Below are positions 21,108 through 64,000 of a stretch of DNA of 64,000 nucleotides, piece after piece. The notes beneath the pieces were generated by a model. It was not told the DNA's origin and made no database searches. It worked only from the letters and a program-made list of their open reading frames with translations. Each line of letters opens with the position of its first letter. Within the stretch, counting starts at the first letter, position 1. The position numbers were made by a program, and so were the translations under genes. The stretch spans positions 62,001-126,000 of the forward strand of contig NW_026570408.1 of assembly GCF_019649055.1 (NCBI RefSeq), written 5' to 3'. This stretch comes from Paramacrobiotus metropolitanus. Its lineage: Eukaryota; Tardigrada; Eutardigrada; Parachela; Macrobiotidae.

Positions 21108-22041
21108 TACTGCATTAAAAAAATACACCAATGCAAAACTAAGCGAATCTAGACGTGAAAAAGTAAATTATCAATGCAAACTAAGCGACTTCACATGAGA
21201 GCGTGATGGTGCCTGTAATTTATGGGCGCAGCACACATCTTCAGATACTCATTAAATTATTTTTCGTACATCGCTGATATTATATCGGAAAGTTCCTGGG
21301 AAGGTCGCCGCAGTCGGGAAATTTTCTTTAGTGGCTGAATGCTGTCTTGTTCCAGAAATGTATCCTGTGAGCTAGTAGATCGCAACGGTGTGTAATAATG
21401 CAAGGTTATATGAAAATACATCTGACGAATAGAATTTCCTGTGGCGATGATCAGGTTGCAGATGATTAACTGAACTGCGAAACCCGCATCCTGAAGGATC
21501 GAGCGGTGTCCTCCCACTGCCCTGAATCACAGAAATCCTTCTAAATTTGACAGTATCAGTAAATAAGAGCATCGGGCCAGTAGCTATTTGGAAGAAGGGA
21601 CTTAAGTTTCGTTGTGGGAAGATGTCGGCGCCGTTGACTTAAAGGCCATGCCATGCACGTTATACATTTAACCGGAGAAATTAATTGGCCGGAAGGCCGA
21701 TTAGATAATTGAAAATTAATGTCCAGATAAAGTTGAATATTTAACAAACAAAATTAACGTTATGCCAAAGAATTTCTTGAGCATTTTCTACATTGACGTA
21801 CGCTTTACTTCTAATTAAACACAAATAGATACACACGTAAGAAACATAATAATTGTAACATTTGCACGCTACCGTGTCTTTCTTCGGCTCGGTAGGCAGA
21901 ATGCTGTATAGTCGCTCAATGCCGCCAGTAAGACTCTCTTATTAATTAAGCGGCGTTCATATGTATATCGTTAATTTTGCCTGAACCGCTCTACAATATT
22001 TCATATGGCGGATATAAATCATATAATTAACTTCTTATTTA
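21108..22041. other. Intergenic, no gene seen
   Basis: Upstream region of the minus-strand GPCR. Short minus-strand ORFs at 21257-21747 show no domain. No clear promoter motif identified. Confidence 0.4.
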
Positions 22042-26775: not shown

Positions 26776-27318
26776 GTGTCAGGGTCTTCCCGGTCGTACC
26801 CGTGGCTGCCCGTGATAATCCTGGTCCAGATCCTGCACGTGTTAAACAGCGCACAGCGGGCCCAATGTCGACGGGTCTGCTCACTGTGGAACGCTCTTCT
26901 GGAGAAGCCTGACCAGGAAATCTTCGTGTCCTTTTCCCACCAGCGTTCCGTGGATCACCGTGGCATGCCGACCACCCCCAACGAGGCCGAGTGGACGCAC
27001 TCCGCGGACATGGTGGCACAAAGTTTGTGGCGGTGCTTTGGTGCCAGCGCCAAACGGATCATCATCAGTCAGGCATCGCAGCAGGCGCCCTACAACGAAT
27101 CCTTGGAGGACTGCCTGCGACTGATCGAGGGCCTCTACGAGGAGCGGGCGTTGGGATGGCTTCATGATGCGCCGGGGTGCATAGTGATGGGGGCGGAGTT
27201 GGTTCGGCGACAGATTGTTGCGCCAGTCGACTCTTGGCTTCGAACAGTAGTTCCTCCTGAACATTCAGTTTCAATAACACTCATTACCGCGAACTGGGAT
27301 ATTTTATTTACAACATGA
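26776..27318 (+). pseudogene. Inverted F-box segment of the pseudogene
   Basis: Plus-strand open frame of 180 codons without an ATG at its start. It opens with an F-box: LPVIILVQILHVLNSAQRAQ, then CRRVCSLWNALL, followed by a region comparable to residues 216-345 of the F-box gene at 7637. Both neighbours are the N- and C-terminal parts of the same protein on the minus strand, and the 5' end of this segment abuts the C-terminal part. That is exactly what an in-place inversion of about 0.55-0.6 kb would give. An independent plus-strand gene lacking the N-terminal module is the alternative, but no upstream exon is visible. Confidence 0.6.
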
Positions 27319-41552: not shown

Positions 41553-42346
41553 CTACTGAGCAGCAGCTTCGCCTTCGGCGGGAGCAGCTTCAGCTGGGGC
41601 GGCTTCCTCCGGAGCCCTAGCGGCGGCCACCTGCACACGGCCGGACGCAGCAGCGCCGGTCATCTTTCGGACAACGTCATCCAGCAGCGGAATATCGGCG
41701 CCCTGGTAGAGACGGCTATTGGAGTAGTCATAGAAAGAGGCGGCCTTGCTGCAGTCCACGTCGAACCACCAGTTGCAGACCAGGGTGATCTGGTTGAACA
41801 CCTGCAAACACCCCCACCAATAAGCATCAAGTTATCGACCAGTCAGAGCGCGTGTCGTCGTACACTCATGTTGGGGCACAAGTACGAGGTCTGGTTGCCG
41901 TTAATGTCGCAGCGGTGGAAGACTGCAAGAAAATAAATCTTGACCTTTGTATATACGAAAAATAGTGTCCAATGCGTGTATACCTTGGCAGCGGGAAGCC
42001 GGGGATGGATCAGCGTAGAACCCTGGTTGATGGGTGCTGCCGCAGTCGAAGGTCGTCTGCGGAATAGCGACATTATTAGGATAATCCTGACCGGCGCGCG
42101 CGGTGGCGATCAAGTTGTACTGATCGGGCACGCTCAGTTTGGTGCGTCCACGCAGCTGATCCAACGCCCCGAAAGCCAACGGATTCTGGGTCTTGACAGC
42201 GCGCTTAGCCTGGATAAAACATAAACTAGAAGGTCAAACGTCATCCCTTATATGATGTTCCGTACAACATAACGCCTTAATTGTACCTTGATGCTGGCAG
42301 CCGAAGTCGTGGCCACGACGACGAGGATAACGAAAAGGGATTTCAT
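41553..42346 (-). CDS. Secreted chitin-binding (peritrophin-A) protein
   Basis: Four minus-strand exons: 42346-42287, 42209-41984, 41922-41864 and 41801-41553 (phases 0, 1, 0), 197 aa. Exon 1 is a signal peptide (MKSLFVILVVVATTSAASIK). A single type-2 chitin-binding domain (CBM14) spans exons 2-4: TFDCGSTHQPGFYADP, CQVFHRCDINGNQTSYLCPN, then FNQITLVCNWWFDVDCS, with all six cysteines and the aromatic residues of the family. The C-terminus is an Ala/Glu/Pro-rich tail. Domains of this kind anchor proteins to chitin in cuticle or gut lining, as in arthropod single-domain cuticle peritrophins. The third exon end is set by NMS|VFNQ, matching the family. A decayed copy of exons 3-4 lies at 51.9-52.1 kb. 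Confidence 0.88.
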
Positions 42347-43392
42347 GATGCCGGCGCTGGTTTTAGGAGAGTCTTCGGTGGCTGGGTTAGAAGTAGACTG
42401 TGAGAGGCGAATGATGCTGTCTGAAGGAAATAACAACGCTTTATATATTCTTTGACTAAAATGATCGCTGTTGAATGTTTTACCGTTTGGGCGTTGGCAC
42501 GGGCGTTCACTTCCGCTTCGTGGGCAATGAAAAGTCGCGCGATATTACCTGTTGTCATTTAGTGCATATTGATTTGCGGTTTGCTGTTCAAAATCGGCCG
42601 AATTGTGATTGAAACATTGCACAGTGAAATCTAGTCAACGTTTTCTCTGTAAAGCAGCATTTTTAGTCGGTAATGATACCGTGTAAATTGCCGATGCGGA
42701 AGCGTGTGGTGTATAATGGATTCTAATTAATTAAATTTCATTCGTTACGTTGCATAATAAGTCTTGGCTTAACCGTTTTAAGGGCATTAGCATCGAGCAG
42801 GTTCGCTAAATTAAGGGTTTAACAGACGCGCCAAATTGAAATTCATTTAATACGATTAAATTTATTGCCGTTGCGACTGCCTTTGGGCTTTAACTCGGCT
42901 AAATCAAACTTTTCAGAGCAATCTTATGTAAAGCAGCTGAGCAACGTTATCTTTTGCTGAAATCTACCAACTTCCGCAACTATCATACGAGTAAGTGTAT
43001 TGCACTGTATGCATAGGATTCAGATGCAAAAATTTACATGGTTAACGTTAATGCATAAAGTGTAGAGCAGGTAATGTACATGAACCATCATTTAAAACGA
43101 ATAGCAAGTTAACAATATATTATTTTTATTTTCCACCATCGAGTGGACATATCTGGTGCGGGCGAGCGCAAGGAGTGGCTTCTTGTTTCTTAGTATCTAA
43201 ATAAAATGATTTCGCTACATAATATAATATGAATACTTCAGTATATACTGAGAAAGAACATAATATTATGTAAATAATGTTTTTGTTTACTGCCGATTGC
43301 AGGTACTGCGTGGATGTTATACGATGCAGTTCACTTTCTAATCTCAAGCTATTGTATACCAAAGACCGCGTATTGTACACGTATGCAGGATG
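42347..43392. other. Upstream of the chitin-binding gene; no other gene seen
   Basis: Contains the TATA box of the chitin-binding gene at 42441-42447. The remainder is AT-rich without exon or RNA signature. Confidence 0.45.
42441..42447 (-). promoter_or_regulatory. TATA box of the chitin-binding gene
   Basis: On the minus strand the sequence reads TATATAA about 95 bp upstream of the ATG at 42346. Confidence 0.5.
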
Positions 43393-44417: not shown

Positions 44418-46265
44418 ATGCATCACAGCGTGGCGCTCACTGTATTGGTTTTCTGCTTGTCAGGGTACGGACTAGTACATTGCGATGATCCCTCGGTAAA
44501 TGGCAACGGAAATGCCGGTTCTTCAGGGCAGAACGACCCCTCTTCGCTGGATATATTCGGACGGTTTAGCACCTTCTCGGCTCTGTTCTCGGCTTTGTTC
44601 GCCAACAACGGAACCTCCATGACCTTTAACGTTATTCCCAAACCGAGTCCAGGAGATCAGCCGAATCCAAGCAGCCCCGGTGATTTCTGTCAAGGTAAGC
44701 GGTTTCGGAACTTAAAAAAATACCGTATATGCACACAGCATTATTTTTCAGACAAAATTAATTACTGTTGATGAAGCTGATAATTTGTACTGTACGCACT
44801 GTTTTTATAATACGTTTTTTGTTTGCAGCTACGTTGATTCCCAACGCGGGACCGTTCTACCCAAAAACCTGTACCGAAATCGTTTTCACCGTTGTCACCA
44901 CAGTAAGTCAGATGTACATACTAGAGCCGTATTACTGTAGTTATAATCAAACAAAAATAAATTTTGCAGGAAATTGGTAACAACGTTGAATAAAACATAA
45001 CGGAGATACCACATCGTAAAAACAAAGCCACGCTACATGTATATAGTAGAAAAAATGCGTGACGATAACCTAATTATTCGTATTGCGGTTCGGATTCACG
45101 TGGTGCGAAATTTGCGAATATAGTACAATTACAAAGGTCAGAAAAGGTTGCAGAGTTTTGTGATCTCTTTGTACTGTAGGTAATCTCAATATTCTCGTCA
45201 GTTATTTTGGTTGTAAGCATACTGTCCATGTTCTTTTCTAATGTGCACCGTATGGGCCCATGGGCAACCACTCGTTAGTTCTGTTCAGACACTTGTCAAA
45301 TTATTGCATTTTTTGCAGGGTTGTCCATCGTATCGGGCATTCTACCAGATGTCGGGACTTCCATGTGCCCAGATGCTGGGTGACGGATCCGTTGCCTTCA
45401 GTCCGGAAAAGTATGGCCAGTGCATTGTGGGACCGGGTATCGTCTACAACGGCAGAGTATTTGGAATGGACACCGAAACCAAATCCACCTTCGCTGATTA
45501 CCAAATCACGGTTAGTATACTTTGACATAAAGCGTGGTTAAAGTTCTAAATAATACAGCGATTGTAGCGCACTTACGGCTGATTAAAACACTGATTTGCA
45601 CATGGAATGCGTTATTAACAACAATAGCATAATACTACCGCATATGACAAAATAATTTTTTATAGAATATTTTAAGCAACCACGAGATACACATTACTTA
45701 AAAAATATTAATAAAGTACGGATCTTATTCAAAGGTCCCAATTTTGCGCTGATGTGATACAACCAAGAAGTACGCATGCAGCCACACAAACTGCATTCCT
45801 TATTTTAATCGCTATTTTATTATTTCTTACCAGGGTTCGCAGGATATCGTGTAAAAATTGGCATAACAGGCTACAGCCATGCTAATACGCAGTAGTACCA
45901 GTACAGTACTCGTATTTCTGTAGCATGTTATGCAAATTAATATAAAGGTTACAAACAGGCACGGAGGTTTATGGTCTCCCTGTGGGTAACCTCAGTCTCA
46001 GTATCTCAGTTACCGCACCTGGCTCGTGATATCATCATCTGAAAGTATTTCCGTACTGGTGCTGAGCCGTTGACATGCAATGCTACACTGCACGTCCGCA
46101 CACATTAACACAGTACGCACCGGTTCTCCATCCTGATGCCGTATTTCCTCTTTGCAGGTTGATACCACCAACCTGCAGAACGGGTGTGGTGGAGTTCCCC
46201 AGGAGGCTACAACGGACAGTTTCCCAGTTCCGGATCCGGTAATTTCGCCGGCACAAGACTACTAG
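44418..46265 (+). CDS. Cassette-family secreted protein 1 (one cassette)
   Basis: Four exons: 44418-44694, 44829-44902, 45319-45510 and 46158-46265, with phases 1, 0, 0, giving 216 aa. Exon 1 is a leader: signal peptide (VALTVLVFCLSGYGLVHC), then a Ser/Asn/Pro-rich stretch. Exon A carries NAGPFYPKTC; exon B carries YQMSGLPCAQMLGDGS and CIVGPGIVYNGRV; exon C is VDTTNLQNGC plus a short tail. Exons A, B and C are the same three-exon cassette repeated in the two loci downstream. All splice sites are canonical (AAG|GTAAGC, GCAG|CT, ACA|GTAAGT, GCAG|GGT, ACG|GTTAGT, GCAG|GTT). I do not recognise the domain. Secreted with paired cysteines; function unknown. Confidence 0.75.
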
Positions 46266-47783
46266 GTTCGCCCAACGCCGTCACTTGTCAGCGATACGGG
46301 GAAACCGTATCCGTTTTGGAAAAATGCTTCGGATTTAAACTTGCAAGCGGATATATTGTGAAGATGCTCTACCATTTTCAGATATTGTGAAAACTGTCGT
46401 GTGGGAAATGCAAACTCAACGTCATCGTAATGCTAAAGCTAGCCTAGCTGTAAGAACAAAACATGAAAATACACTGAATGCATGGTTTACTTAGGCCGGT
46501 AATGGTACCGGCGCTGGCAGGTACCGTGCATGCACTGAAAATGTTCTCGAAGCATGTGCACATTATATTATGATATCTACAACATATTCTAATGGTAAGG
46601 CTCAAATTTGCCGTATTCGGAATTAAATATCCCACAGTTTCCTGTAATGCATTGTATCCGAAACTGCATGGTATACGGTAAGTACCATTTATCGGGCTAT
46701 CTTTCTTAAGGTGAATTTCTACTCAAATTAGGTCATATTAAACTATACAGGAATCGATAGAGAATTTATTTTTCTACCTACTGATGTGAATTTGTGAGAA
46801 AATTGTACTCAAGCAGTTATTTTAAAAACTGTCATAGGGTAGAAATCTTTAACAAGGTTTTAATACTGCGCAGTAGAGGAGAATATCTCTGTTCCGGATG
46901 GCGGCAAGTTTGCTGACTAGTGACTACAAGCCACAAGAATCTAACAAGCGACAACCGTGTTTGTATAAGAAGCAGAATACGCGTACTGTGTCATAAATGA
47001 CCAGGTAGAACAATGAGGGGTGCAAACGAGTAGTAACTCCGCTTAAACGACCTTACCATGCCTAAATATGGATGCACGTTTATGATGTAATGAGGTAATG
47101 CCATCTAGCATCATTCCCGTTTTCACCGTTTACTGATATTTTTAAGGTCAATCATTTTCATCCCGACTTGATAGACCGTAGTACTGATATGTCGTGGTAA
47201 GGTGCGTCTGCAGAGTGGTAAATAACATAACACAAATCTGTTCTCTGGATCAGTATTTCCGAATCCTGCAAAAAAAGAGTTACGCACGATTATAACGAAT
47301 CCTCCATAACTTAAGTAACTGACGGGGAAATAGTGTTTAGTTGTTTAGTTTTAAGAAACCGGTTATTTACACAACCTGTCTGACACCAGAATGATTTCAT
47401 TGTGAAATCATTTTACGGACATACTCACACTATACTACAGTAGAGTAGGTGTCAGACATTTTATGTCATTGCGTAAATTCTTCTGCTGTGAAACTGGATG
47501 ATGTCACTGCGTAAATTTCTCCTCTGCCGCCAGCCATGAAATTCGTAACGATCACCAATCGCCTATGAGCAAATAAAGGTGTACTGCTCTCCTTACCTGT
47601 ACTCGCGCAAATAAACAACTTCATAAAAAAGTAATGCATAGTGACATAGAGTTACTCTGCTCGCGATAACTAAAAAGACAAGGATTTTAGGAATGATTAA
47701 TGCTTATTTCACGACGTAGTGTCACCAGTCATTTACAACATTCCACTTCAAATCACTGTAGGGATGGGCCACCAAAAACTGCA
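46266..47783. other. Intergenic; 5' region of cassette locus 2
   Basis: The 3' part (from about 47480) is homologous to the upstream region of cassette gene 3 (around 52520-52640) and shares GCGTAAATT, TGCCGCCAG and CGAGCAAATAAA blocks. A short hairpin AATGATTTCA/TGAAATCATT lies at about 47390. No exons seen before 47877. Confidence 0.45.
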
Positions 47784-47789
47784 TATAAA
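47784..47789 (+). promoter_or_regulatory. TATA box of cassette locus 2
   Basis: CTGCATATAAAG places TATAAA 93 bp upstream of the ATG at 47877. The paralogous gene has CTGCATATAAAC 88 bp upstream of its ATG. Confidence 0.6.
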
Positions 47790-47876
47790 GATTGAACTAC
47801 CGAGTTCGTGCCTCGGCAGCGTGATTTTCCTTAACTTTCTTGTTCAAGTTTGTGAGGTCGATAGAATTCATCCACC

Positions 47877-48817
47877 ATGGTACTGTACAGCAGAATCCTA
47901 ATTGTGACCTTTATTATTGGGTTGGTCTATACTGTAGCTGAATGTCAATTTGATCCAGAAACTGGTCCTGACAACATTCCTGGTCCACCAGGCCGTGGAC
48001 CTGGAGACATATGGGGCATGATGGCGTGGATGGCGTCGCTGGTTGGGAAGAAGGGATGCAGTTCGGGTGGATGTGGCGGCGGTAGTACTAATATAGTTAT
48101 CAATAACAACAACAATAACGGTTATCCATATGCATCATCCGGATACAATTTCGAAAGCACTAGCGGACCAAGCAGCACGCGCAACTTTTCACCGTCTCCG
48201 TCGTGTCAAGCTACGATCCTTACCTAGTCATCGCAAAGTAACTAATGCGAGCGGGGGTTCTATCGGACCAAGTTCCCAAGTATAAAGGTTTTGTCCCGTA
48301 GTTGTGCTGAACGGCGGGCCGTTCTATCCGGACCGCCAGGAGGTTATGTCGACGGTCTCAATTATACGCGTAAGGTTTTGAAAACGACGATTTCTTATAA
48401 TGCTGCATTAAGCACTGCTGGACCGATTCCAGGGTTGTCTTCCTTATCAAGTGCCGTTCGAGCTAACTGGACTACCGTGTGGCAGACTAACGCCGCATAA
48501 CGGTGACCTTATGTTCGATACTAGCCAGGGGTGTGGCGTTGGACAAGGGTTCGTCTACTCTGGAAACCTGCTGGCTAGAGACACGATGAGCGGATCCATA
48601 TTACAGAGTGCCGTTGTCGTGGTAAGACCACCTGTTGACGCACTGTATTTTGGAAAGGTGTTAATGCACATTGCATGCAAATACATAATAAAGATGCAAT
48701 TGACAATTATCGCCCTAGGTGGACACCATCAACATGCAACACTGCAACTATCCACCAACGACAAGTGCACCGCTGTCCTGCTCGTGTCAGTTGCTGCTGT
48801 TGTACCTGCTCTTGTAA
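47877..48817 (+). pseudogene. Cassette locus 2: leader and cassette 1, splice donor lost
   Basis: The leader exon (47877-48210) is close to that of gene 3: signal peptide, Gly/Pro-rich GPDNIPGPPGRGPGD, MAWMASLVGKKGC and a Gly/Asn-rich stretch. Its end, TGTCAAG, is followed by CTACGA where both paralogues have GTAAGC or GTACAA, so the GT donor is lost and read-through stops after five codons. Cassette 1 follows: exon A 48302-48369 (the conserved Cys of the YPxxC motif replaced, PDRQE), exon B 48433-48621 (VPFELTGLPCGR, GCGVGQGFVYSGNLLARD) and exon C from 48719, which runs to TAA at 48817 with a hydrophobic end. Exon C can only splice out in phase 2, not the phase 1 of other cassettes. Either a decayed gene or one expressed only through an unusual donor. 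Confidence 0.6.
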
Positions 48818-48866
48818 ATAATAGCCAATTGTATAGCAAATTCCGACGGTTTTCCGTTGGTTGCAG

Positions 48867-50053
48867 TTTCTTTTCCGAACGGCGGACTTCTCTATCCAGA
48901 TCAGTGTACCGCGGTATATGTGACTCCGCTATAGGACCCGCATGTGTCACAGGTAAGTTTGTCCTGCTTCCGGAACGGGCGTGGCTTTATTTAATTTGAA
49001 AACTGAAAGCGAAGCTGAAAAATGAGTTAAGGTTTTAAACGAGTTCAGGTCTATCTGGTAATTAGAGGCAGGTTCAGGTTTCCTCCTTCTGACCCTAAAG
49101 TCGTTTCCAGGTGGAGTATACGTTATGTTCTGCATAGTTTACAGTAATCTTGCATGCTAATGTATGGCGGAGATTTCTTATATCATAGAATTACGAGTAT
49201 GTAACAAAAAAAAAGCGTTTGTACAGATAATAAGCAGAGCTTCAATATTGTAATCCATATTATCGAAACATATTGAAGAGTACAAGTGCAACAGGATTAG
49301 GTATCTCACCAGTTGCTGTACGCCACAAGGCGTGAAAAGACCCGAAGCTTCGAAGACCGTTTTTATACCGCAGCCGCCGGTGAAAAATGGCCAATTATTG
49401 AAGAGCGCATCAAAGACCCGTTTATTTAAAAGCTATGAGTATTTTAAATGACATGCCCCGGTTTCGCGGGGGACTTTGTCTGTCGAATTGTTACCTGTAG
49501 AGGCGAAAAAAAGCAAAATGCACAACTTAAGATGCGTAATGACTGACGTCTTCAGGAATGCGGCGGGCGCGTGACCTTTCAGCTGAACGGATTGCCGTGC
49601 GCTTCGGTGCAGTTGACGGCACTGTGGTTTTCGATCCTTCTAGTCAAAGGTGCAGCGTAGGACCCGGGATTATTTACAGCGGTACGGTAACTGCGATCGA
49701 CATGTATACAGGAATACCGTACCATACTGCGCAAATTACGGTAAGGCGTTTATTCTCCAACGATGATACTGCAATGAGTGCAATCGTAGTAAATTATCAC
49801 GTTGCACAATACCAACTTACCTTTTTCAATGCAAGACCAAAATTTTATGGTGTCGTAATTTTGGCATTCGCCTGAAATAGTGTTTCATGATGATAATTAC
49901 GATCGGATAGCTAAGTAATTGTTGACAATGATTGATACTGTCCAAGAAAATTCCCTAATTTCTGGACAAACCGCTAGTTGAAAATTTTCACAAGGTTATG
50001 TTGTAAATCTGTGATTTTTAATGAAGATGGACACCGAAAATCTGGGACATTGT
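48867..50053 (+). pseudogene. Cassette locus 2: cassette 2, decayed
   Basis: Exon A (48867-48952) has the right length and phase (SFPNGGLLYPDQCTA), but an in-frame TAG at 48932-48934. Exon B (49556-49740) starts ECGGRVTFQLNGLPCASVQ, yet is 185 nt long, one short of a multiple of three; the frame resumes with GTVVFDPSSQRCSVGPGIIY. A remnant of exon C (50028-50053) reads ATGGACACCGAA and then needs one extra base to match the VDTTNLQHC pattern; it is followed by GTAAGT. The splice borders are still good, so the damage looks recent. Closest relative is cassette 2 of gene 3 (SVQNDGTVTFDP). Confidence 0.7.
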
Positions 50054-50175
50054 GTAAGTTCAACGCCATTTTCCCCCGGCACTCCTTGCAACGGTACGCA
50101 TAACGTAAATTAGGGGTAGCTACTGAAAAGTAATAATTTCCGGTGCATTTCAGTGTTGGCGCGTATTATTTTCAG

Positions 50176-50981
50176 TTACGTATCCTGATCACAATGGACC
50201 GTTCGCTCCGATGTTTTGCGACGAAACATTTTTTACCCCCAATTACGTTGCTGTAAGTTTTCCCGCTCCATGTCTACTCCTCTCATATCATATGTACAAA
50301 TACATGTACTTAGTATGCGTTTAAGGGTAACGACTGTAACTGGGTACAGCATTAGTGGATACTGGGTACTGCTTCTCACAAACCATTGTACTCGTATTGA
50401 CAAAGAATCCTTCACATTCCCCAGGTCGAGTGTGCAGCTTTGTACGAGCTTACCGGATTGCCATGCGCTCAAGCACACCCCGACGGATCTATATCCGTTA
50501 ATGTCAACGGAGACGGGTGCGTTGTGGGAAGCGGAATTACGTACAACGGCACATTGACGGTGGGAGCTCCGTGGATATTCACAACCGGAACATGGGATGT
50601 GCAGGTGCTTAGATATGATTAGTCTTACAGGAATTATGCTAATTATGTACATTAGTAATCGGCCAGAGTGCGCGGTTGATGACTAAAATTAAGATATCCG
50701 TCCGTACACATAGAATACGAACAACGCGCGCAGCAATAAAAAAATGTGATACGATTATTAAAATCATATCTGTCAAGGTGTGTATGGTTAAGCCGTTTGT
50801 AAAAAAACGTGCTATACGTAAGTTGTGGTATTAACGTCCAAGCACTCACGCCATTGTATGTTTGTACGACTTCCGTAAAATTTTAGTGTACTGACAAACG
50901 GTTTTTGTGCTTTGCCAGATGGACACTACGAATTTGCAACACTGTCCCATTACGACATCCACTACTGCTGATGAAATTTAG
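50176..50981 (+). CDS. Cassette locus 2: cassette 3, intact terminal exons
   Basis: Exon A 50176-50252 (TYPDHNGPFAPMFCDE), exon B 50425-50604 (ALYELTGLPCAQAHPDGS, GCVVGSGITYNGTL) and exon C 50919-50981 (MDTTNLQHCPITTSTTADEI then TAG). All three keep frame, cysteines and canonical splice sites (CAG|TT, GCT|GTAAGT, CCCAG|GTC, CAG|GTGCTT, CCAG|ATG). It would be the C-terminal end of the locus. It is joined to a leader only if cassette 2 is skipped; since cassettes are 1-to-1 phase modules, skipping could keep frame. Confidence 0.55.
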
Positions 50982-51389
50982 AGCTGCAGGGGCGTCGAAC
51001 AAAAATTTGTTAATTAAAATTTAATCGAATTGCTAGAAAATTATCTAATGATGCACTCCGTATCTGAAAATTTCGTATTTCGTGCGACAATCCGACAATC
51101 AAATATAATCGAAAACTATTCGTGAATGCATGATTATTTTTTTTTCGATTGACAATCCTGTTTTCCTGCATTTTTGAGCCTGTGAATCGACGATTTTAAC
51201 GGTAACAAAACAATCTTTACCCAATAAAATGAAAACAACAAAAAAACTGACCAGTACATACAATACAAATTACTGCATGATCTTCCACTGTTGCGACTAT
51301 CTTACCAAAGCCTCTGAGCAGCCGCCCGTAGCCTTATTTCAGCGGGACGCAGTAGCTGCACCCAGCTGAAGAAGATTAAAATAATTTTA
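50982..51389. other. Intergenic, no gene seen
   Basis: AT-rich spacer after cassette locus 2. No exon recognised. Confidence 0.4.
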
Positions 51390-51545
51390 ATCACATGTCG
51401 CCCACGAGCAAACACACACGTGCGCTAGCTCAAATTGGTATATTCACGTTTTCACACAAATAAAAATTTCCAAATTGAGTACATAATATGTGGTTTGCGG
51501 TCGATCAGTAGCGGAAATAGTATTCAATTAGTAAAATAAATCCCT
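51390..51545 (+). repeat. Orphan copy of the cassette-gene promoter region
   Basis: About 150 bp starting GTCGCCCACGAGCAAACACA and including GTTTGCGGTCGATCA aligns with 52583-52735 upstream of gene 3 and, less closely, with the region upstream of locus 2. No leader exon follows it. It marks a third, partly deleted copy of the duplicated unit. Confidence 0.65.
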
Positions 51546-51823
51546 GTAGGCTCTTGGTGTAAAAAATATTTTCGCGATGCAGGAGATACCGATACGGTAC
51601 TTTCACACTTAAAAAACATCCTCCGCCCATACAGACCGTTACGCCCATTACGCAATCGCCAATTTAATAAAATCTACGTGTGTAGTTTTATTTATATCGC
51701 AGATGTTCGAACTCGAAACGAGAGCTGTAACGAATATTTTTACAAACTCTACAGAACACCAGTATTGCCTTCAGGGAACATGGCTTTCTCTGGAGCAGGA
51801 GCGAAGATCTACGCGGAATGGAC

Positions 51824-51864
51824 GACAATAGGTCGCTAGCGACAATAGGTCGCTAGCGACAATA
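51824..51864. repeat. 17-bp tandem duplication
   Basis: GACAATAGGTCGCTAGC occurs twice head to tail, followed by a third partial GACAATA. It lies at the edge of the chitin-binding pseudogene. Confidence 0.75.
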
Positions 51865-52130
51865 ACGTCACCTGAGAGCGGTACATTCCAGCCTTGGAAG
51901 GGGCGGCTCTTGGTGCAGTTGTAGAAGGGATTGCCTTGCTGTAGTTCACATCGAACCACATTTGCAACCTCGGCCTTAGGGTGATCTGGTCGAACACCTA
52001 AACACACCCACCATTCAGCATTCAGCAATCGACCAATCCGAGCGTCCTGAGCGTGCGTCGTCAACTCACGTCGGGGCACAAGTTCCAAGTCTGACTGCCG
52101 TTGATTTTGCAGCGGTTGAAGATGTAAGAA
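51860..52130 (-). pseudogene. Decayed copy of the chitin-binding gene (exons 3-4)
   Basis: On the minus strand it carries a counterpart of exon 3 (FNRCKINGSQTWNLCP against FHRCDINGNQTSYLCP), the intervening intron and the start of exon 4 (VFDQITL), then loses frame and cysteines (CNWW becomes LQMWF, DVDCS becomes DVNYS). Intron retention shows a genomic duplication. The intact gene is about 10 kb away at 41553-42346. Exons 1, 2 and the C-terminal tail are missing or unrecognisable. Confidence 0.8.
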
Positions 52131-52850
52131 TTCATGCTTGAGGATGCCTATGAAGTAAACAACCTTTGGCTAATTAGGCTCCTGCCTGCACGTAGTAATA
52201 ACCTCCTGCACAAGCGGACCCTAAAAACTTAATTTTCAATGTGGTCGTCACAGCTTTCGCTAGTATAGAGCTGATTTAGAGTATCCATTATGTATGTATT
52301 TTGTCTTTTCGTAACTATTTTGTAACTTCAGTTTTCTTTCATGATGATTTATGAGGTAAACCGAAGTTCCCAACATTGACCCTTTAGCCAATTACCTACT
52401 ACGTACTTATTGCAAACTATAATTATTGATTTTCACCGATACTCGGACAGACGCATTCCAACATACTTTTGTTGTGAAATTCTTTACTTATACGGTCATA
52501 CCGCAGGCGTCAGAAATGGATGTTTAGATAATTTCATTGCGTAAATTGCTTCTTTGCCGCCAGTCATAAAAAGTGTAACGACCACATGCCGCCCACGAGC
52601 AAATAAACACGTGCGGGAGCCCGAAATGGTATGTTTACGTTTCCTCACAAATAACAACTCCATAAAGTGATCAAGATAATGATTTGCGGTCGATCAAGAA
52701 ATATTATTTCATCCTGTAAAATAATTCCATTATCCATATATATAGGTTCCTCGAATCAGAAATACGTACTTTCGCGACATAGTGCCCATCAACCACATTT
52801 CACTGCAAATGACGCCGTAAAGAGCGTCGGTTAGCCGCAAAAGAACTGCA
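52131..52850. other. Upstream region of cassette gene 3
   Basis: From about 52500 onward it is homologous to the region upstream of locus 2 and to the orphan promoter at 51390. No exon seen before 52939. Confidence 0.5.
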
Positions 52851-52856
52851 TATAAA
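52851..52856 (+). promoter_or_regulatory. TATA box of cassette gene 3
   Basis: TATAAA within AACTGCATATAAACTGC, 88 bp upstream of the ATG at 52939; conserved with locus 2. Confidence 0.65.
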
Positions 52857-52938
52857 CTGCGATAATTTTGCTCTCTCGTGTAGATTATAATCGTTTCCGT
52901 ACATTTGCTTGCTGCTTTCACAAAATTGACACACAACC

Positions 52939-55900
52939 ATGTTACTTCGCAGCAGAATAATATTAGTGACCTTTATCATCGGGTTGGTCTATGTTGTAGC
53001 CGAATGTCAGTATCCGCCACCCGGCTCTGGTCCCGACAACAGTCCTGGTCCGCCAGGGCCTGGACCTGGAGATGTCTGGAGCATGTGGGCGTGGATGGCG
53101 TCGCTGTTTGGGAAAAAAGGATGCAACACTTGTGGTTGCGGATCGGGTGGATGCAGCGGCGGCGGCACCATCATAAATATTAACCAGAACAATAATAATC
53201 CATCGCCCGGGGACCATTCGGGAAGTACAACCGTGGACCATTCCGGAATTACTTCCGTACCAACCACTCTGCCTTCTTCTCCGTCACCGCCGTGTCAAGG
53301 TACAATTGTTGTTCTTTTTGCTGCTGGTTTGGCTAGTTGCACTGACGTTAATTATTATAGCAAAGCAATATGACAATAATCACCGTTTTGCAGCATCTAT
53401 CAACAGTGGTCCCTTTTTTCCTGGCACTTGCCAGGAAAATTTTTTTTCTGCCGTGATGCTCATTGTAAGTGCAGTGTTCTTGTGTTCATCGGAGCCGTAA
53501 AAAAAACTTAGTGTATAATTGCAGGGATCGTGCCTGCCTTATCAAGTGTCTTTCGAGCTGACAGGGCTTCCTTGTGGCAGAGTACAGAGTAATGGTGAGA
53601 TTGTGTTCGATGCTAGCCTTGGATGCGCCGTAGGCGTCGGTGTTTCTTACTATGGGAATTTACGGGCTTGGGACAGCTTCAGTCAAATGACATTAGGAGC
53701 AGATATGGTCGTGGTGAGTACATCGTACCTGGTAAAAAAATGGAAAATTACCATTCTTCCTGTCACTAGGCTCTCCGAGCACTGTGACAAATGATACATA
53801 AATTCTGATTAGATTTTATAAGATTAGCACATTAAAACGTGATTTTGAAGAACGGTAAAGGTCATACGTGTGTAGCAAAAAGCACAAAACCTTAAAACAC
53901 TTGTGACCTTTAACTGCCAATATTAATCTAAATTCTAACGCTTTGTGCTGAATTAGGTGGACACTTCCAGCATACAGTATTGCATAACCACCACACCAAC
54001 GTCAACCCCGAGCACAGATACACCCACCACGGGTTCCTTGGTGTGCATATGTAAGCTTTTGACTTAATGACACAGTGCGTGTTTGTACATATAAGGACTG
54101 CAATGTCTGAGGTAAGCAATCCCTGTCATTTCGTCACCGGGCTGTATACAACGCGGTACAAAGGCACCATGTTTATCCACAACGTAAATCTCCAGCCGGG
54201 GCGTACAAGGGTCACGCTCATGGGGTGCTTACCGTAACCTATTGTCAGCCCCTACACAGCGGCAAGTAATTCACATTGCTTCTGGCATTTTTCAGTTTCT
54301 TATCCAAACAGTGGATACTTTTCTCCATATCAGTGCACTGCAAACATCTTTACTCCCTTGTCTCTCTCCATGGTACGCTGTTGACTGCAGCTTACAGGTC
54401 CTGTGACACAGTTATTGATATTAAAACATATATCGTTTTCAACATGGATTTTAATTTGCTGTGTTACCCTTCTAACGCTCATCGATTATTAGTTAAGAAC
54501 AATTAGTACTATGCATATCGAGTTCTGAACCAAAATTTTGTGGTAATGTTAAAATTATTGTTCTGACTCCAACGAACGTCTGCATCTTTACCTGCGGCAT
54601 CGTTAATTACATAAATAGTAACCAGAACCACCATCAGCAATACGTACGCTAGAGGCACGCTAGTTGCTATTTGATCATGTTTACTGCTCAATTGTTGTTC
54701 AGAAAGGCGTCACAAATTATGATTAGGATCATTACGCAGAAAAACTTATCATTGTAACAGGGATGCACGTGCTGTTCGCGAGTGACCTTTCAACTCACCG
54801 GATTACCGTGCGCATCCGTGCAAAACGATGGAACCGTGACTTTTGACCCACTCAGTCAGGGTTGCAGCGTGGGACAAGGGACCGTATACTACGGCACTGT
54901 AACGGCAGTGGACATTTTTACAGGCATGCAGTACAGCAGTGTACAAATTACGGTACGGTAATATAACTTCTTAAGGCAGTACTGTACTACAACAAAAGTA
55001 AAACGTTTCTTTGAAAAATGGAGAGCTAAGTCATGACCAATGCTAACCAAACGTATGCAACTGAAAAATGCTAACAATGCCTAACATGCACTCCTGTGGC
55101 TTCTTGGCTTTTAAAATACTGTATGCAACACTGCTGCGTGTTTAATGTCAGTGTAATCACACGTCCAATAATGATTTCCGTTGAAATAAATTGAAGGGTG
55201 ATATAGTTATAACATATGTACGTGTTGTAAGACCTGGAAGCATTATTGTGACCTGTTCGTTTGATTACGCTCATTACGTTTCCACATTCCGGTAGCGTGA
55301 AGTTGCGTATTTGGCATATTTAGGTCAATTATCCGTTTATTATCTAGATGCTTAATCACCGCTTGGCTATACATATTACATAATAAGGGAATCTTGTGTT
55401 TGCCAGGTGGACACCACGAATTTACAAAACTGTTTCACCACATCTTCGACCACTACCACGGGACTGCCTTGCACCAGTAAGTATTATGTACTAAATTGCA
55501 TCTTACAGTCATGTGCCGATATCCTTCGATAGATTTGCGAGGATTAATTTTCTCGTAGTGTCAGTCACACCCGCTTCCTTGTCATTTGCACCCACAAGCT
55601 GCAGCGAAGTAATTCTTATGGCGAGAACAAGTGTAAGACCTTTGTATTTTACTGCTGTTATGGAGAGACATCCTCTAAAGCACCAGATAATGCTAAAATC
55701 TTTGGCGAATACCGTATTTTATCAGTTGGTGGCCCATCGTCAACTATTTTTCGTAAGGGTTGTGGGTGTCATCTTTATTTATGAGAATAAAGTTTTAAAG
55801 GGAGAAGTAATGCAAAAACGATCCCCAGCCGGATCTTAATTCCGGGGTGGACTTGTAGATCGGGAGAGACCAATAACTGATAAAACACAGTAATGCGATC

Positions 55901-58458
55901 ATAACGCCGTATAACTAAATAACTATTATTTAAATAAGTCTGTTTATAAAAGTCTGTTTAATAAGTCTGTTTAAGTGCAAATGTAATCAGCGATAAAACG
56001 GATTAAGCAAAATTCTAATGCATTCTGTATTTCGTTGCAGGGTTGCACAGACAGTGATTTTTATCGCATTAATTGGAAAACTCCCGGTTTGCCGTCAAAT
56101 TGTTTCGCGTTTAGTACCAGTTCTGGGCTTCCCTGGATCCTTGTTTTTACCCCCATTCAACCGTACAATCAATTCTATTGTGATGTCGGCCAAGGGGTCA
56201 GTTATTCGGGAAATATAACGGCTTACGACGTGTATAACCCTGGTGTCAATCTGGCTACGTGGAGCATAACGGTATGTCTCGAGATTCAAAATCCAGTTCA
56301 AAGTGGAAAACCTTCCAACTTCTTTTGCGTTTATTTAGTTAAGCCAATAGTCGAAAAACAACGGTTGTCGTGTCAGCTTCATTTCGAGCCCTGACATAAA
56401 CCCTTGGGTTGTTCGCGTTCTCAGAGAAAAAGTTTTAACTGCAGTCTGTAGGTTAAAAGGAAATTAGAACAACTGTGCAAGACTCATTAAGAACAATAAT
56501 ATAACGAGGAGAATTTCCAAGAGAAAATCCGATCAGTTCCGCAGACGGTAGAATCGGGTACATTCAAACCGATCATCGTGCTATGTTTTTTTAACGTGGA
56601 TAGATGACAGTAGATAACCAGTTACGGCCGCCCGGGACTGCCAGCTTTAAAACTGACGAAGAAAACGCGAAAAACTGGCATTACCAGATCCCGGTTATCC
56701 GACGCTTTCTGAGCTGAACAGACAAAAGAAGCGCCAATTCGCTGTCTTCCGGCACAGCCATTACGCCCATTACATAGGATAGGTGTTTATGAGGGTACGA
56801 GGCATAAGCCCATCTCAAAACACGGCCACAGTTATATTTGGGAAATGTAACAGAGATAGGCTTTGAGCCATAGCGCCGACTACGGTGATATCTCACGCAC
56901 AACTGTGACCGTATTTCGAGATGCAGGCTTGTGCCATGTTGATCATCACAAGACTCGCCGTCCGTGGTGCATTTGGACACCAAAATATTTGTTTTAACGT
57001 TACTGCTCCATTAAGATTAAACTGCGTGCACGGGACGCCGGTATACAAAGCCTGAAAAGCCAAAGCGTGGATTACTTAGTTGCAACTGCAAGGCGTATGT
57101 ATCTCCGTAGACGTAACCAGTCCTATAATTTCAGGTTGACACTTCAGGGATGGAACACTGCGTCGCCAGCGGGGCGTATCCAGTAAACGCAAATTGCTGG
57201 GGTATGTATAAAACCAGTAGAACACTCTACGGCTTCGCGAGGGCAAACAGCAAAGGTAGAAATATCTGTTGCACGGTCCCTGTTCGAGACATGACTGTAG
57301 TGACCAGAAAACGCCACTGTTGCTCCGTACCGTTATACGTTAACGTACTCCGAGTCAGTTAAAACATACCAAGATAGAATTAATTTGTTTTAATTTGCTC
57401 ATAGACTGTATTAACTTTCCATTCCGAGTCTTATTTGTACTCAACTTATACGGGGTCTCTTAGTACTACATTATTTCCGTGATACTGAATAAATACAGTA
57501 CCTCCGCTTGATTGACAGCCTAAGCTGCATGTCGGTAATGTTTGCACACTGCAGGTGCAGTCGTGTCTCGCTCCGGAATCAAGCACGTGTAGGTCGTGTG
57601 TTTACTTATGGGATTTCCTAGAGTCATCCAGTACTAATTGATAATATACATAACTCTGCAAATTGCAGCTAGCCTTTCACCCATGCCTGGCCCCATTTTT
57701 CGTCCGACAAGTTGCGATTACAGTGTTTTAACAAATATCGTATTCGGCGAGGTACGTGCAAGTTGTATCGTTATTTTTGTATCTATACAAACGTACCATC
57801 TGAAACTTAAGTATGTAATTTGTAAATTGCAGTTAATGTTATTAACGTAGTAAGGTGTCAAATACACAGCAAGTAGTCGTATGAATAGAAGTGTACTAAA
57901 TAGGTAAATGCACCGTTTCAGGCCAGCACTATATGACCGAAACAATGCCATACACATTAACACATATAATAAATATTAGACCAAATTTACTAAAGCGCCC
58001 ATGCCGTAACTAAAGCCAAAATGTTTCCTTTCCGATTGTGTTGCTATAACTAGCCCAAATACACCAGTTCCAGTATTTCTTTCCACTAGGGTTGCCAGTA
58101 TTACCCGGACCTCAATCCACGATATGAGCTATCCGGGTTTAATTCGTGCAGCGCGGTGCAACTTGTTAACAATTCCTTAATTTTTGATGTTTCCAATGGC
58201 ACTTCATGTAACATTACATCAGCAATGTCGCATACGGGAACTCTTACGGTGTATCATTCCTACTACCAGGCGGCTTTTTGGAATTCGTGGCAGATACAGG
58301 TAAAATGACCGTCTCAGTCCCTAAATCTTCTTAATGTACGGTGCAGCGTAAGATGTTTATAGCTGTTGACTGGCGGCCTGCAACCTTGTGCCGACTACTG
58401 GGCGGGTACCGGCACATTGCCAACCACTGTCACTACCACGCCTTGGTGGACGGGATAA
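52939..58458 (+). CDS. Cassette-family secreted protein 3 (four cassettes, 13 exons)
   Basis: Leader 52939-53299; then four A-B-C cassettes: 53394-53464, 53525-53713, 53957-54050; 54296-54372, 54761-54952, 55407-55476; 55559-55632, 56041-56271, 57135-57201; 57669-57751, 58090-58299, 58363-58458. The sum is 1815 nt, 604 aa, open throughout. Every leader/C-to-A junction is phase 1 and every A-B and B-C junction phase 0, so each cassette is a symmetric module. The leader has a signal peptide, GPP-rich stretch, FGKKGC and Gly/Cys-rich and Asn-rich parts. A exons have a P-x6-8-C motif; B exons have FELTGLPCGR / FQLTGLPCAS and GC-x-VG-x-G-x2-YYG; C exons are VDTTNLQNC plus Thr/Ser-Pro linkers. Cassettes 3 and 4 are more diverged (TPGLPSNC, YELSGFNSC). 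Domain unrecognised; probably an extracellular repeat protein. Confidence 0.75.
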
Positions 58459-59543: not shown

Positions 59544-59849
59544 TTATCCAAAGTAGCCGTAGTTATAGCCGTAATTGTACAAGCAGATACCCATGGAATT
59601 CCCCTTGCCATCGGGAATACAGGCTGTACCACAGCAGAACACCATCAGGTAGCAGGGACAGCGTTTATTGCGGGCGGACGACACCCCGCTCATCTGGCGT
59701 TCCATGAGGGCGTGGGCGCTGGCGACCGGATCCATGGCCATGGCCGGGATGGGCGCGAGACCTCCGTATGCGTATCCGTATCCTTGGCTGTGCACGCTCA
59801 GGCTGGCGAGAAGGACCACGAGGGCGGAAAATACTACAAGGTTGGCCAT
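59544..59849 (-). CDS. Small secreted cysteine-rich protein
   Basis: A single minus-strand exon of 101 aa. The N-terminus is a strong signal peptide (MANLVVFSALVVLLASLSVH). The mature part starts with a Gly/Tyr-rich stretch (QGYGYAYGG), then an Ala/Met-rich segment, and ends in a Cys cluster (CPCYLMVFCCGTAC...GICLYNYGYNYGYFG). The double GYGY-type motifs at both ends of the mature protein recall cuticular or silk-like Gly/Tyr proteins; the Cys cluster recalls small disulfide peptides. Family not recognised. The overlapping plus-strand ORFs are shadows. Confidence 0.65.
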   Translation of the reverse strand: MANLVVFSALVVLLASLSVHSQGYGYAYGGLAPIPAMAMDPVASAHALMERQMSGVSSARNKRCPCYLMVFCCGTACIPDGKGNSMGICLYNYGYNYGYFG

Positions 59850-61992
59850 TGTGCGTAACCGACGAGTGGGAATATTGCAGGTATTATTAGCGAAAAAAAG
59901 TTATTAAGCCTAAAATTAAAAGCTGCTAACTACAACGGATGGTGACTGACTGAAAACTGACTTTTGTTGTCAAGGTTTTTACCGATATGTAATGTTGCCA
60001 AGCGGAAAACGGTATGTGAATTTAAGATCATACGTTATTACAAATCTCGTGGAAATACTTTCTGGCTGTATGAAGTGGTACTGTAGCAGCGTTATATTAT
60101 TATTTTCGTATCTGGCAGTACATATTATTATTAAAAACTGTGGCTTATATGCGTATTGTACAAACTTATTGTTTTCACTTAATACCAGCATTTTCATACA
60201 GCATGCATTTCATAGTGCCTTCCATACAGCAATACCAGCCGTACGGTCTAATGTACCCTCTACTTGACCCGAGTTTCGGCCATAAACGGTACCCCCACAA
60301 TGTACTGATGTATTAGTATTTGTATGAGTACCAGCAATTACTTGCGACCGTATAAAGTGATTTGAGTAAGTAAAATACAGTACAGTAATTATATTTTTTG
60401 CTGAAATGTTTATGGTAATGAGCGTTCTCAGTTGTCGTACTTAGCAGTTTCTCCCATTATTGTGTGCACTATGACTAATATAATTTTGACGGACACGATT
60501 GATTTTTCTCCTTGTACAACATAAATAATTCTTGCACAACCGAGTTGTAATAAGAAAAAAGCAAACACACCCTTTCAATTATTATAATGTCGTTTTAAAG
60601 TAAAACATGACCTCTTACAGAATGCTGAATAGTGAATACTCTTCACCGTTTAGTGATTTTGTGAGATAATCGGCGTTATTTCATATTCTTTTAAGAGTTC
60701 TCTAAATTTTAATTTTTTTTAATTTCGACATGGTACGAAAAATTTGTAATTTATATCTGTGCGTAAATTATGCAGTAATAATATTCCGGTTTTACAGGAG
60801 ATTGCGCAAGCGTCTTACATATATAATATTAAATTTCAACGAAGTGATATTAAAGTCTGTTTTACGATCTTTTCTTTACTCAGTTGCTTCCACAACTAAT
60901 ATAAAATTATGTACCCATATCATCGTTGTGAATCCGATCCCGCCATTATAATGTCATTATAGCTGTAAGCTTTTGGAGGCTCATCGGTTCGTGGTGGTTC
61001 ATAAATGCCTCATAAATGCCATTTGCTGCGCCACTGATAATAATTATTCTGTCGGTGGTGTTCGCATCGCCTGAAAATTTCGAAGACTGAAAAAATTGAA
61101 AAAAGTCACCACACTGCGTTATTACAGAAATCCAGCATTAGCATACAAGGTTTTTATACTTCCGTAAGTTACATCAATGGCAGACCTACAGTAGTTAAAT
61201 TACTTACCTTTTTACAGAATTACAGTTACAATAAGTAGCGCCATTGTGGCACATAATAAGCTTCCGAGATACTGTAGAAGGGGATTCCCTGGAATCTATA
61301 TGTAACTGGATTCCTTGGGATCTGTACGAGTACGGCTGCCTAGTTTGCGATTTGAACAGAGAACTGGGAAAAGTGCCTGTGTGCGCGGGGTTTCAGTTTG
61401 TATAGCGGTAACTCACTTTCGGCTTGCATGGTAGGTCTGAAATTACTAAATCTCAGTTTTTGATTGTAGTATAAACTTTTCCCTTGTAAATCGTCCTCCA
61501 CGGAACCGTGGTATAGTATATAAGTTTTCAAGGTTACTTTGAGCGCCTAACTCTACCGGTATCGGCATCTGTGGGACGATCTTGGAGCAGATGCATGGGA
61601 AGCAGAATTGCGTGGGAAATCCCTTTCAACTACCTCAAATGCCGGTTTTTTAGATGGCCGTGTCTACCTACACCATGTCGGTTTTCTAGATTTGTTATGT
61701 GGGTTTTCTGTACAACTTCCACGGGAATGCGGATCAATGATCATATTACTGATCTACTTGTATTTTCTTGATATTGATAGTGTACCTTAGATACAGATCG
61801 CTATCCATATACCGTATCTATCTTGGAATGAAATCGTATAAATGAGTAATGCCAATAGTTGCGAGCTTTGCTTAGAAAATTAGTCTCACATATTTACAGT
61901 ATATCACCCCGCCAAAAAATCATATCCGAAAAAATTTTGACATTTTTTGCAAAACTGTGTAAACTGCTGCTTATATCCAACAATTTTGCATC
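59850..61992. other. Intergenic, no gene seen
   Basis: About 2.1 kb of AT-rich DNA. Several ORFs of 60-90 codons are low-complexity or hydrophobic by composition and have no splice or start context. No repeat with another copy in the window found. Confidence 0.4.
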
Positions 61993-64000
61993 ATGTACTG
62001 CGTCAAGGATTCTATGGGCGTGCTTTTAGTACCGACTGTAGCAATACTGCTGGGCAGTTCTCTGCTGCTGTTGCGTGTCAGCTGTACAGGTTCAGGTGGG
62101 TGTATCTGCTAAAACGCAAATCTTCCCGTGCGGGAGGGTGGCAGAGGCTTACCTAAATAATCTCTGTATTTGCTGCCGTCACCCTGCTGGTGCTTCACGT
62201 TGTGGCTGAACACGGTGCTTATGTGCCGTCCTGTATTTTAAGTTACGTACATACTCTATACTGAGTATGTACTCGATCTGGAACACTGGCCGGTACATAA
62301 GTATCATGTTCATCCCCAACGTATTTGTGCGGTTCCTACAAAACCATTTTTGCCACTACTTGGTCTTCGATATATGCATGTGACCTTTGCAAAAGTCTTG
62401 GATATTCGAATTAATCCAGAATTAGATGTTGAACTTCGGAAAGCACAACGAAAATGGTTATACAGCTGCGTTTTTTAACCAAAGAAAAATAAATGTCTGC
62501 AATTTGCTGACACAGATATGTTTCTGCAAAACGAATGACTCGTTAATTCACCTAACTGTTCTTCCAGAGGAATCCGAGTTAGCGGAACAGCTGCCGGTTG
62601 CTTCAGAGGATCACGGGTTGACAGAGCAGCAGCTCAAATTTTTTCTGAGGCAAAAAATAGCTTTCGCAGAATGTAATAAAACGACATTAAATCAACCCTA
62701 CCCGAATGACGGTAAGTATAATTTGTGTTGTGCTGAGTCTGCTGACCAGTAAAATGTACTTATAAATAGAGAAACTACATGTATTATAGCCAATTATGGA
62801 CTGTGTTATATATAAATTGCTAAATCAAAAATCATATTGTTACATCATAATGCTGTTACTGTAGTTGTTTTTATAAGACAAAGTACCACATCTCGAGACA
62901 TGTGGGAAGTACTTCTCCTCTTCAGCTTCGTAGTATTACAGGTCAGGTTATTTGTTCAACAGTTATCCTTAGTTCTGGAAAAAAATCCTCAAGCCTATTC
63001 ACATTTCCATAACAATTAATCGATAAAAAGAAGGAAAAGGAGATGAGTTATAATTTTAAAGAACTTAAGACCATTTAAGAGAGTTTTGTAGAAATCAAAC
63101 CTGAAGCATGTAAATAATTAAATAATTTAAGAACTAACCTCACAGGGGTCAAATATGTACGGACAATTTGGTTTTGAAATAGGTGGTTGATAAGACCGTA
63201 ATACCAGTGAAGTACCGGTTGTATTTCGCCTTCTGTAGACTGTACATTGGTGAATTTATGATTAGCGAACGGGGATGACTAATGAGCCTGTTAAACAGGT
63301 AGGCCCTACTGTCCCGCATTATTCGACACTTGGGGATGCTGGAATTATACACTGACTGGGACGCGAGCTTACATTGCGTGTCCGGAGTGGGTGCATGAAG
63401 GTTTCGATGCCAAGTGTAAGGTCGCAATGAAACAGTACTGTTGCGAATCATATTTGAAAAATACATACCGTCTCGACTCATTGTACAATAATTACTTCCC
63501 TGATAGTGAACGCATTCAAAGACTGCACCGTCAACGGAACCTGGTGGCTACACCCGTTGACCGAAAAACATTGGTCAAATTACACTGCCTGTTATAAATA
63601 CGAGACATTACAGTATCCCGGTGCGTATAAAAACAAATTTGGAGAATGGGTGACCACGCCATTTCGTCAACCGTCACAAAGTCGAACTCGAACACGATAT
63701 CGAAACGCCACAAAGTCCTTTGACGTTTTGCTAAACCGTCCCAGCTTTCTTAAATTTTCTTAAATTTCTTAGCCGTGGCCCTTGTGAAGGTCGACTTCGT
63801 GCGTTCGGCATATCGTGACGGCTGACGACGTGTTTGTCGACACAGTGCCGGGAAGCCGTATTTCTTCTGGATGAGGCATTTAATAATGTATATTTAATTT
63901 GACTTAATATGGCGCATTCAGGATTGTTCATTTACTAATTTTTCTATATTTTAGAGCATCCGCCTACTAATATTAGTATGGAATCCACATCCGGAGCACA
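61993..64000 (+). CDS. Class-B (secretin-like) GPCR, N-terminal part, runs off window
   Basis: Exons 61993-62095 (signal peptide with LLVPTVAILLGSSLLLL), 62568-62711, 63299-63415, 63507-63620 and probably 63955 onward; all junctions phase 1. They assemble a hormone-receptor (HRM) domain: YCPALFDTWGCWNYTLTGT, YIACPEWVHEGFDAK, then LNAFKDCTVNGTWW and HWSNYTAC, with six cysteines and the GTW and WSNYT motifs of the family. The pattern is nearest to calcitonin/DH31- and CRF/DH44-type peptide-hormone receptors. The short intron 63416-63506 must be removed; without it the frame appears shifted. The seven-pass region must lie beyond 64000. Intron 1 contains a partial family-1 MITE. The last two exon ends are weak (GTGCGT donor; 46 nt of the final exon visible). 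Confidence 0.7.
62164..62236 (+). repeat. MITE family 1, partial copy 3 (in intron)
   Basis: TGCTGCCGTCACCCTGCTGG and CACGTTGTGGCTGAACACGG match the left half of copies 1 and 2 in copy-1 orientation. The termini and right half are missing. Located in intron 1 of the class-B GPCR gene. Confidence 0.65.

Follow-up and report, generated by a model that had tools for sequence, protein, structure and literature searches.

What is encoded between positions 44,418 and 58,458 of a 64,000-nucleotide stretch of the genome of the tardigrade Paramacrobiotus metropolitanus (RefSeq assembly GCF_019649055.1, contig NW_026570408.1; C188:62001-126000 in our numbering), here called the window, where short exons recur in a fixed order? 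A sequence-only reading had described three adjacent loci of one design, each with a leader exon followed by cassettes of three exons (A, B and C), and had proposed a secreted, possibly undescribed repeat family. We found that the cassettes encode modules with six cysteines, which form a small but real orphan family contained in no domain library that we consulted. Loci 1 and 3 are intact, whereas locus 2 is not a working gene.

Exons were placed by hand and subjected to a splice and phase test. Both locus 1 (44418-46265, plus strand) and locus 3 (52939-58458, plus strand) gave an uninterrupted open reading frame (ORF) with GT-AG introns throughout, encoding 216 amino acids (aa) in one cassette and 604 aa in four cassettes, respectively. 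All exons A to C of locus 3 listed below come from the splice and phase test; scores refer to a profile of the B exons.

Locus 1
44418..44694, plus strand: leader exon with ATG, hydrophobic N-terminus (predicted signal peptide) and donor GT, phase 0 to 1
44829..44902, plus strand: exon A1, flanked by AG and GT, phase 1 to 0
45319..45510, plus strand: exon B1, phase 0 to 0, B profile 88 bits
46158..46265, plus strand: exon C1 with stop codon TAG, phase 0

Locus 3
52939..53299, plus strand: leader exon with predicted signal peptide, Pro/Gly stretch and Gly/Cys-rich stretch, ending in PPC with Q across the junction
53394..53464, plus strand: exon A1
53525..53713, plus strand: exon B1, B profile match
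53957..54050, plus strand: exon C1 with Thr/Ser/Pro linker
54296..54372, plus strand: exon A2
54761..54952, plus strand: exon B2, structure predicted (score 86, see below)
55407..55476, plus strand: exon C2
55559..55632, plus strand: exon A3
56041..56271, plus strand: exon B3, long variant, B profile match
57135..57201, plus strand: exon C3
57669..57751, plus strand: exon A4
58090..58299, plus strand: exon B4, B profile match
58363..58458, plus strand: exon C4 with stop codon

The motifs reported earlier (GPF.P..C, LTGLPC...GCxVGxG, and VDTTNLQxC with a Thr-rich linker) are present in the sequence. The same holds for the copy numbers of one and four at loci 1 and 3, whereas the three copies assigned to locus 2 are the remains of a pseudogene.

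The design is not confined to the window. We searched the animal's own genome (533 contigs, 169.8 Mb) by tblastn with single cassettes and one leader exon as queries and scored the best candidates only, so that all family counts are lower bounds. Beyond the window, further family exons were placed only on C79, C118 and C163, from which at least four more intact genes could be assembled:

C118 gene: 443 aa, three cassettes
C79a gene: 323 aa, two cassettes
C79b gene: 345 aa, two cassettes
C163 gene: 325 aa, two cassettes

In the regions on C53, C13, C27 and C29 that tblastn returned with weak scores, the B profile detected no B exon. Searching prokaryotic and viral contigs for matches to a single B exon gave no relative; these collections contain no animals and are uninformative on other tardigrades. 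On C163, a second, partial and inverted copy of the gene lies at the contig end (C163:234864-236620, minus strand), either as a true duplication or as an assembly artefact; the protein encoded by its exon B2 is identical to that of the first copy.

Together, the six intact genes comprise 14 cassettes and 42 introns, all 42 of which are of the GT-AG type and follow one common phase plan. A phase-1 intron precedes each cassette, both introns inside it are in phase 0, and its end is marked either by another phase-1 intron or by a stop codon. The proposed 1-0-0-1 phase order thus applies to all 14 cassettes, with the terminal ones ending in a stop. B exons of the intact window genes and of their paralogues score 65-103 bits against the B profile. 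These scores, and the recurrence of the same leader-A-B-C plan in four other intact genes, show that the cassette design is not due to chance.

Alignment of the 14 cassettes revealed six invariant cysteine columns in a module of about 100 residues. Thirteen modules contain exactly six cysteines in the approximate spacing C-x(13-21)-C-x(11-13)-C-x(13-19)-C-x(16-25)-C-x(36-42)-C, and module 2 of locus 3 has two extra ones. Cysteine 1 is encoded by the exon ahead of the cassette, either the leader or a C exon, three bases before the phase-1 junction; the leader of locus 1, for instance, ends in DFC, with Q across the junction, and its terminal cysteine was assigned to the first module. Terminal C exons carry a stop codon and lack a cysteine after the linker, and the cysteine before a cassette junction therefore belongs to the module that follows. 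The protein module is offset from the exon cassette by one residue pair in the upstream direction, a shift missed in the earlier description, and internal gain or removal of a cassette consequently leaves the modules complete. In contrast to what had been stated, not every cassette can be skipped freely without breaking the frame, since the last one of each gene holds the stop and has no post-linker cysteine.

The linkers that follow cysteine 6 consist of 50-70% Thr/Ser/Pro in most cassettes, with low values in module 3 of locus 3 (15%) and in locus 1 (36%). A hydrophobic N-terminal stretch is present in the leaders of all six genes and a Gly/Cys-rich stretch in most of them. None of the six proteins has a hydrophobic C-terminal tail. 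The hydrophobic leaders suggest that the six proteins are secreted.

Locus 2 (47877-50981, plus strand) is a pseudogene that holds the remains of three cassettes:

47877..48210, plus strand: leader exon, followed by donor CT
48302..48369, plus strand: exon A1, invariant cysteine lost
48433..48621, plus strand: exon B1, open, 63 bits
48719..48785, plus strand: exon C1, where a weak donor GTCAGT would preserve phase 1
48867..48952, plus strand: exon A2, in-frame TAG at 48932
49556..49740, plus strand: exon B2, one-base deletion and frameshift
50027..50093, plus strand: exon C2, placed by hand
50176..50252, plus strand: exon A3, placed by hand
50425..50604, plus strand: exon B3, terminal type, 53 bits
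50919..50981, plus strand: exon C3 with stop codon, placed by hand

After CAAG, the leader exon shows CT instead of GT at the donor position (48211-48212), and in exon B2 the deletion splits the profile matches over two frames. Because the assembly is based on polished nanopore reads (PMC8277472), the one-base deletion alone could be a sequencing error. Substitutions account for the other three defects. Given the CT donor, the lost cysteine, the TAG and the deletion, locus 2 is unable to make the modelled protein. A further, tentative relic lies within the B3-C3 intron of locus 3:

56893..57075, minus strand: inverted B-exon relic (tentative), short match

It scores 38-46 against several B exons, compared with shuffled maxima of mostly 33-39.

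To place the cassettes relative to each other, a tree of 17 cassettes, including those of locus 2, was inspected; its deep branches are weak. The terminal cassettes of the C118, C79a, C79b and C163 genes cluster (92.5/87) and are joined by the terminal cassette of locus 2 (82.8/80) and, more weakly, by module 4 of locus 3 (78/77). The first-type cassettes of the dispersed genes likewise cluster (97.6/98), and loci 2 and 3 pair one to one in their cassettes 1 (99.4/98) and 2 (94.7/95). Mean identity among the dispersed genes is 0.59 within the first type and 0.48 within the last type, compared to 0.31 across types. As cassettes keep their position, this speaks for internal duplication together with gain and loss rather than for free shuffling, and the term cassette shuffling used in the earlier description is too strong. 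The evidence points to internal duplication for modules 1 and 2 of the C118 gene and to gain or loss for module 3 of locus 3.

The C79a, C79b and C163 genes each adjoin an intronless gene of one multi-membrane-span family, whose members are 50-85% identical. This shared neighbour indicates that the three loci spread by segmental duplication. The flanking ORFs look receptor-like and have no Pfam match:

L043 6925-8010, plus strand: intronless multi-membrane-span ORF
L043 9262-9753, minus strand: intronless multi-membrane-span ORF
L044 869-1885, minus strand: intronless multi-membrane-span ORF
L046 729-1718, minus strand: intronless multi-membrane-span ORF

Among the four dispersed genes, the ratio of nonsynonymous to synonymous substitution rates (dN/dS) ranges from 0.26 to 0.40, which indicates purifying selection and supports real coding genes. 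Because dS is saturated in comparisons with loci 1 and 3, the constraint on these two is read from their intact frames and invariant cysteines.

Is the module a known domain? Neither the family modules nor the two full-length window proteins that were scanned gave a match in Pfam, NCBIfam contains no matching model, and the PDB sequences include no convincing relative. We also found no description of the six-cysteine module family in the open literature searched. The proposal of a secreted repeat family is therefore supported, and curated domain models do not recognise it. The CBM_14 (peritrophin-A) profile matched none of the modules. A kringle relationship was considered following a PDB profile match to HGF, whose E-value of 0.0004 was summed over two stretches that are insignificant on their own (independent E-values of 3.7-20). 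In kringles, C..G.G..Y.GT should be found near the start and be followed by CxxW, whereas here the motif comes after the fifth of the six cysteines and the cysteine order differs; the Pfam kringle model had no match in the modules either.

We additionally predicted the structure of exon B, which was folded by itself with alignments made from the family's own exons. AlphaFold returned a predicted local distance difference test (pLDDT) score of 86.0 and a predicted template modelling (pTM) score of 0.68 for exon B2 of locus 3, and a pLDDT of 91.5 and pTM of 0.72 for the divergent exon B2 of C79b, and both models have an identical five-strand layout. Foldseek did not identify a significant structural match for the exon B models (best E 0.21-0.34), and its top-ranking hits were cadherin EC domains. 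With VIA-align, nearly all rows were cadherin EC domains (49 of the 50 alignments listed for one model), and exon B aligned to EC residues 27-95 with a Z score of 5.3-5.4 and a root-mean-square deviation of 2.3 over 58-60 residues. Intimin and Big_2 domains likewise appeared among the structural matches. According to these models, exon B is predicted to form strands C-G of an Ig/cadherin-type beta sandwich. The strands that come first would then be encoded by exon A, and exon C would complete the last one. With two separately modelled exons both resembling Ig/cadherin domains, the fold is probably not new.

Taken together, the gene architecture makes it probable that loci 1 and 3, with locus 2 as a dead copy, belong to a family of secreted proteins that are built from six-cysteine class 1-1 modules and have a structural or coat role. 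Such a role is the most likely one in view of the architecture and of what is generally known about extracellular modules. The six cysteines may pair into three disulfides, which would turn each module into a rigid bead, the Thr/Ser/Pro linkers could act as O-glycosylated spacers, and the Gly/Cys-rich leader of most members might crosslink chains. The proteins would then serve in the cuticle, eggshell, mucus or another matrix, with the number of modules setting reach or valency. New copies stem from the duplication of whole genes or of segments and from the gain or loss of internal cassettes between phase-1 introns. Several points weigh against this interpretation. Splicing and secretion were modelled from genomic sequence, and the disulfides, the glycosylation and the structural role are likewise deduced from sequence. 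The fold was predicted from exon B, with exons A and C left out of the models, and structural Z scores of about 5 lie in the range below 8 that may reflect merely a common arrangement. The neighbouring genes give a weak hint only, in the form of one CBM_14 gene nearby.

A more specific version is tentative at best: the module may be a six-cysteine Ig/cadherin-like sandwich of the tardigrade lineage, unrelated by descent to known families, and the main unit of a matrix restricted to certain taxa, for example the cuticle or the ornamented eggshell, in which internal cassette gain and loss tunes module number.

The main rival, though rather unlikely, is that the proteins are soluble recognition factors, whether immune or defence proteins or salivary or gut secretions, with variable modules that bind their targets. 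Diverse modules on a conserved six-cysteine scaffold are typical of such families too, and so are differences in copy number, the presence of a pseudogene and duplication both in tandem and by segments; secreted cysteine-rich repeat proteins often work through multivalency (PMC6262176). Against it stand the dN/dS values, which are far below 1 when taken gene-wide, the structural appearance of the Pro/Gly/Cys-rich leader and the Thr-rich linkers, and the lack of a match to any known recognition or toxin domain.

Less likely still, the module could be a highly divergent cadherin EC domain that has lost calcium binding and gained disulfides, in which case the genes would encode soluble adhesion proteins. 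The predominance of cadherins among the structural alignments fits this idea, and by eye LESSGAI and GTLTATD stand at the positions of the cadherin motifs F.ID..TG.I and Y.L.V.A.D. However, hhalign of the 14 modules with 20 cadherin domains from the same genome gave a probability of 1.8% over 14 columns that are out of register, with a score of 15.4 compared to up to 13.8 in 100 column-shuffled controls. There is no Pfam cadherin match, the Foldseek E-values are poor, and inspection of the module alignment next to the own-genome cadherins showed that the calcium motifs PE, DxD, LDRE and DxNDN are absent. As the profile comparison is negative, the resemblance in fold is not evidence of membership.

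We regard it as improbable that the exons represent relics or ORFs formed by chance and that the entire cluster is decaying like locus 2; although locus 2 is disabled and the intron of locus 3 may hold an inverted B-like relic, six full-length models have neither a stop nor a bad splice site, and the dispersed paralogues show the low dN/dS given above. A degenerate Cu/Zn SOD-like repeat, as in the tardigrade copper-less SOD repeat proteins (CSRP), which are secreted Greek-key beta tandem repeats free of the copper site (PMC13017621), is close to refuted, given an hhalign probability of 0.2% with nine own-genome SOD C-terminal exons (under many shuffled controls), no Pfam Sod_Cu match, and a separate locus on C26 for SOD-repeat-like exons. 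That locus (L072, C26:77501-83500) contains a run of diverged SOD-like repeat exons and is probably a tardigrade CSRP (PMC13017621).

The surroundings of the family loci, in a window with a GC content of 42-44%, contain further genes and repeats. Upstream of locus 1, a gene for a secreted chitin-binding protein (41553-42544, minus strand) matches CBM_14 with its joined exon translations (E 5e-10). Between loci 2 and 3, a degenerate stretch (51771-52169, minus strand) without a Pfam match is similar on visual inspection to an exon of this gene, possibly as the trace of a segmental duplication in tandem. On the 3' side of locus 1 lies a repeat of roughly 315 bp (46702-47017, plus strand), with about 40 other full or partial copies dispersed through the genome at 68-95% identity; a search of 46400-47200 gave no terminal inverted repeats. 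A single-exon ORF beyond locus 3 (59544-59900, minus strand) has what looks like a signal peptide and a CPCYLMVFCC core between ends rich in Tyr and Gly; it matches nothing in Pfam. Two ORFs encode rhodopsin-family G protein-coupled receptors (16598-17560, plus strand, and 20538-21167, minus strand; 7tm_1 E 9e-31 and 3e-8), and a third (63295-63597, plus strand) matches the hormone receptor domain HRM below the threshold (E 4e-5) and is perhaps the start of a family B receptor. F-box-type ORFs occur near family loci in the window (7628-8899 and 26776-27315, both plus strand) and at L045 (8802-9788, minus strand).

The family offers a clean and countable case of an extracellular module that amplifies within genes via phase-1 introns, and it shows intact, extended and dying copies next to one another. 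It is also a candidate family of structural proteins in a phylum for which little is known about the proteins of cuticle and eggshell. Should the family members turn up in either of these coats, they would provide a direct handle on coat construction; otherwise, this would be one more lineage-restricted secreted family.

Overall, the gene design and the predicted fold are of known kinds, and the sequence family is in no library consulted. With the CSRPs it shares secreted tandem beta-fold repeats and the occurrence in tardigrades, but not a SOD sequence match. Secreted cysteine-rich repeat proteins (SCREP), a label for an architecture, are secreted and carry tandem disulfide-rich domains. In our family, secretion and disulfides are predicted from the hydrophobic leader of all six genes and the six invariant cysteines of each module, and locus 1 contains only one module; the size of about 100 aa and the cysteine spacing are unlike those of any common Pfam domain. 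The likeness to cadherin EC and bacterial Ig-like domains (Big_2, intimin) lies in the predicted placement of exon B on EC1 strands C-G. Cadherins form a seven-strand Greek-key sandwich, of which exon B alone yields five strands superposing on strands C-G, and the family differs from them in having no detectable sequence kinship, no calcium motifs, no transmembrane or cytoplasmic part, and six cysteines instead. Mainly-beta modules of class 1-1 are the standard units of modular extracellular proteins in animals (PMC8001218). Compared to the class 1-1 modules listed by Patthy (Ig, FN3, EGF, kringle; PMC8001218), none of which is matched by Pfam, our family has two extra phase-0 introns per module and cysteine 1 in the preceding exon. 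The six genes contain only the six-cysteine module type, and no Pfam domain was detected in the two full-length window proteins. What the family has in common with these modules is an extracellular (here predicted), mainly beta unit that duplicates in tandem between phase-1 boundaries: all 14 cassettes are entered at phase 1, and every internal one exits at phase 1.

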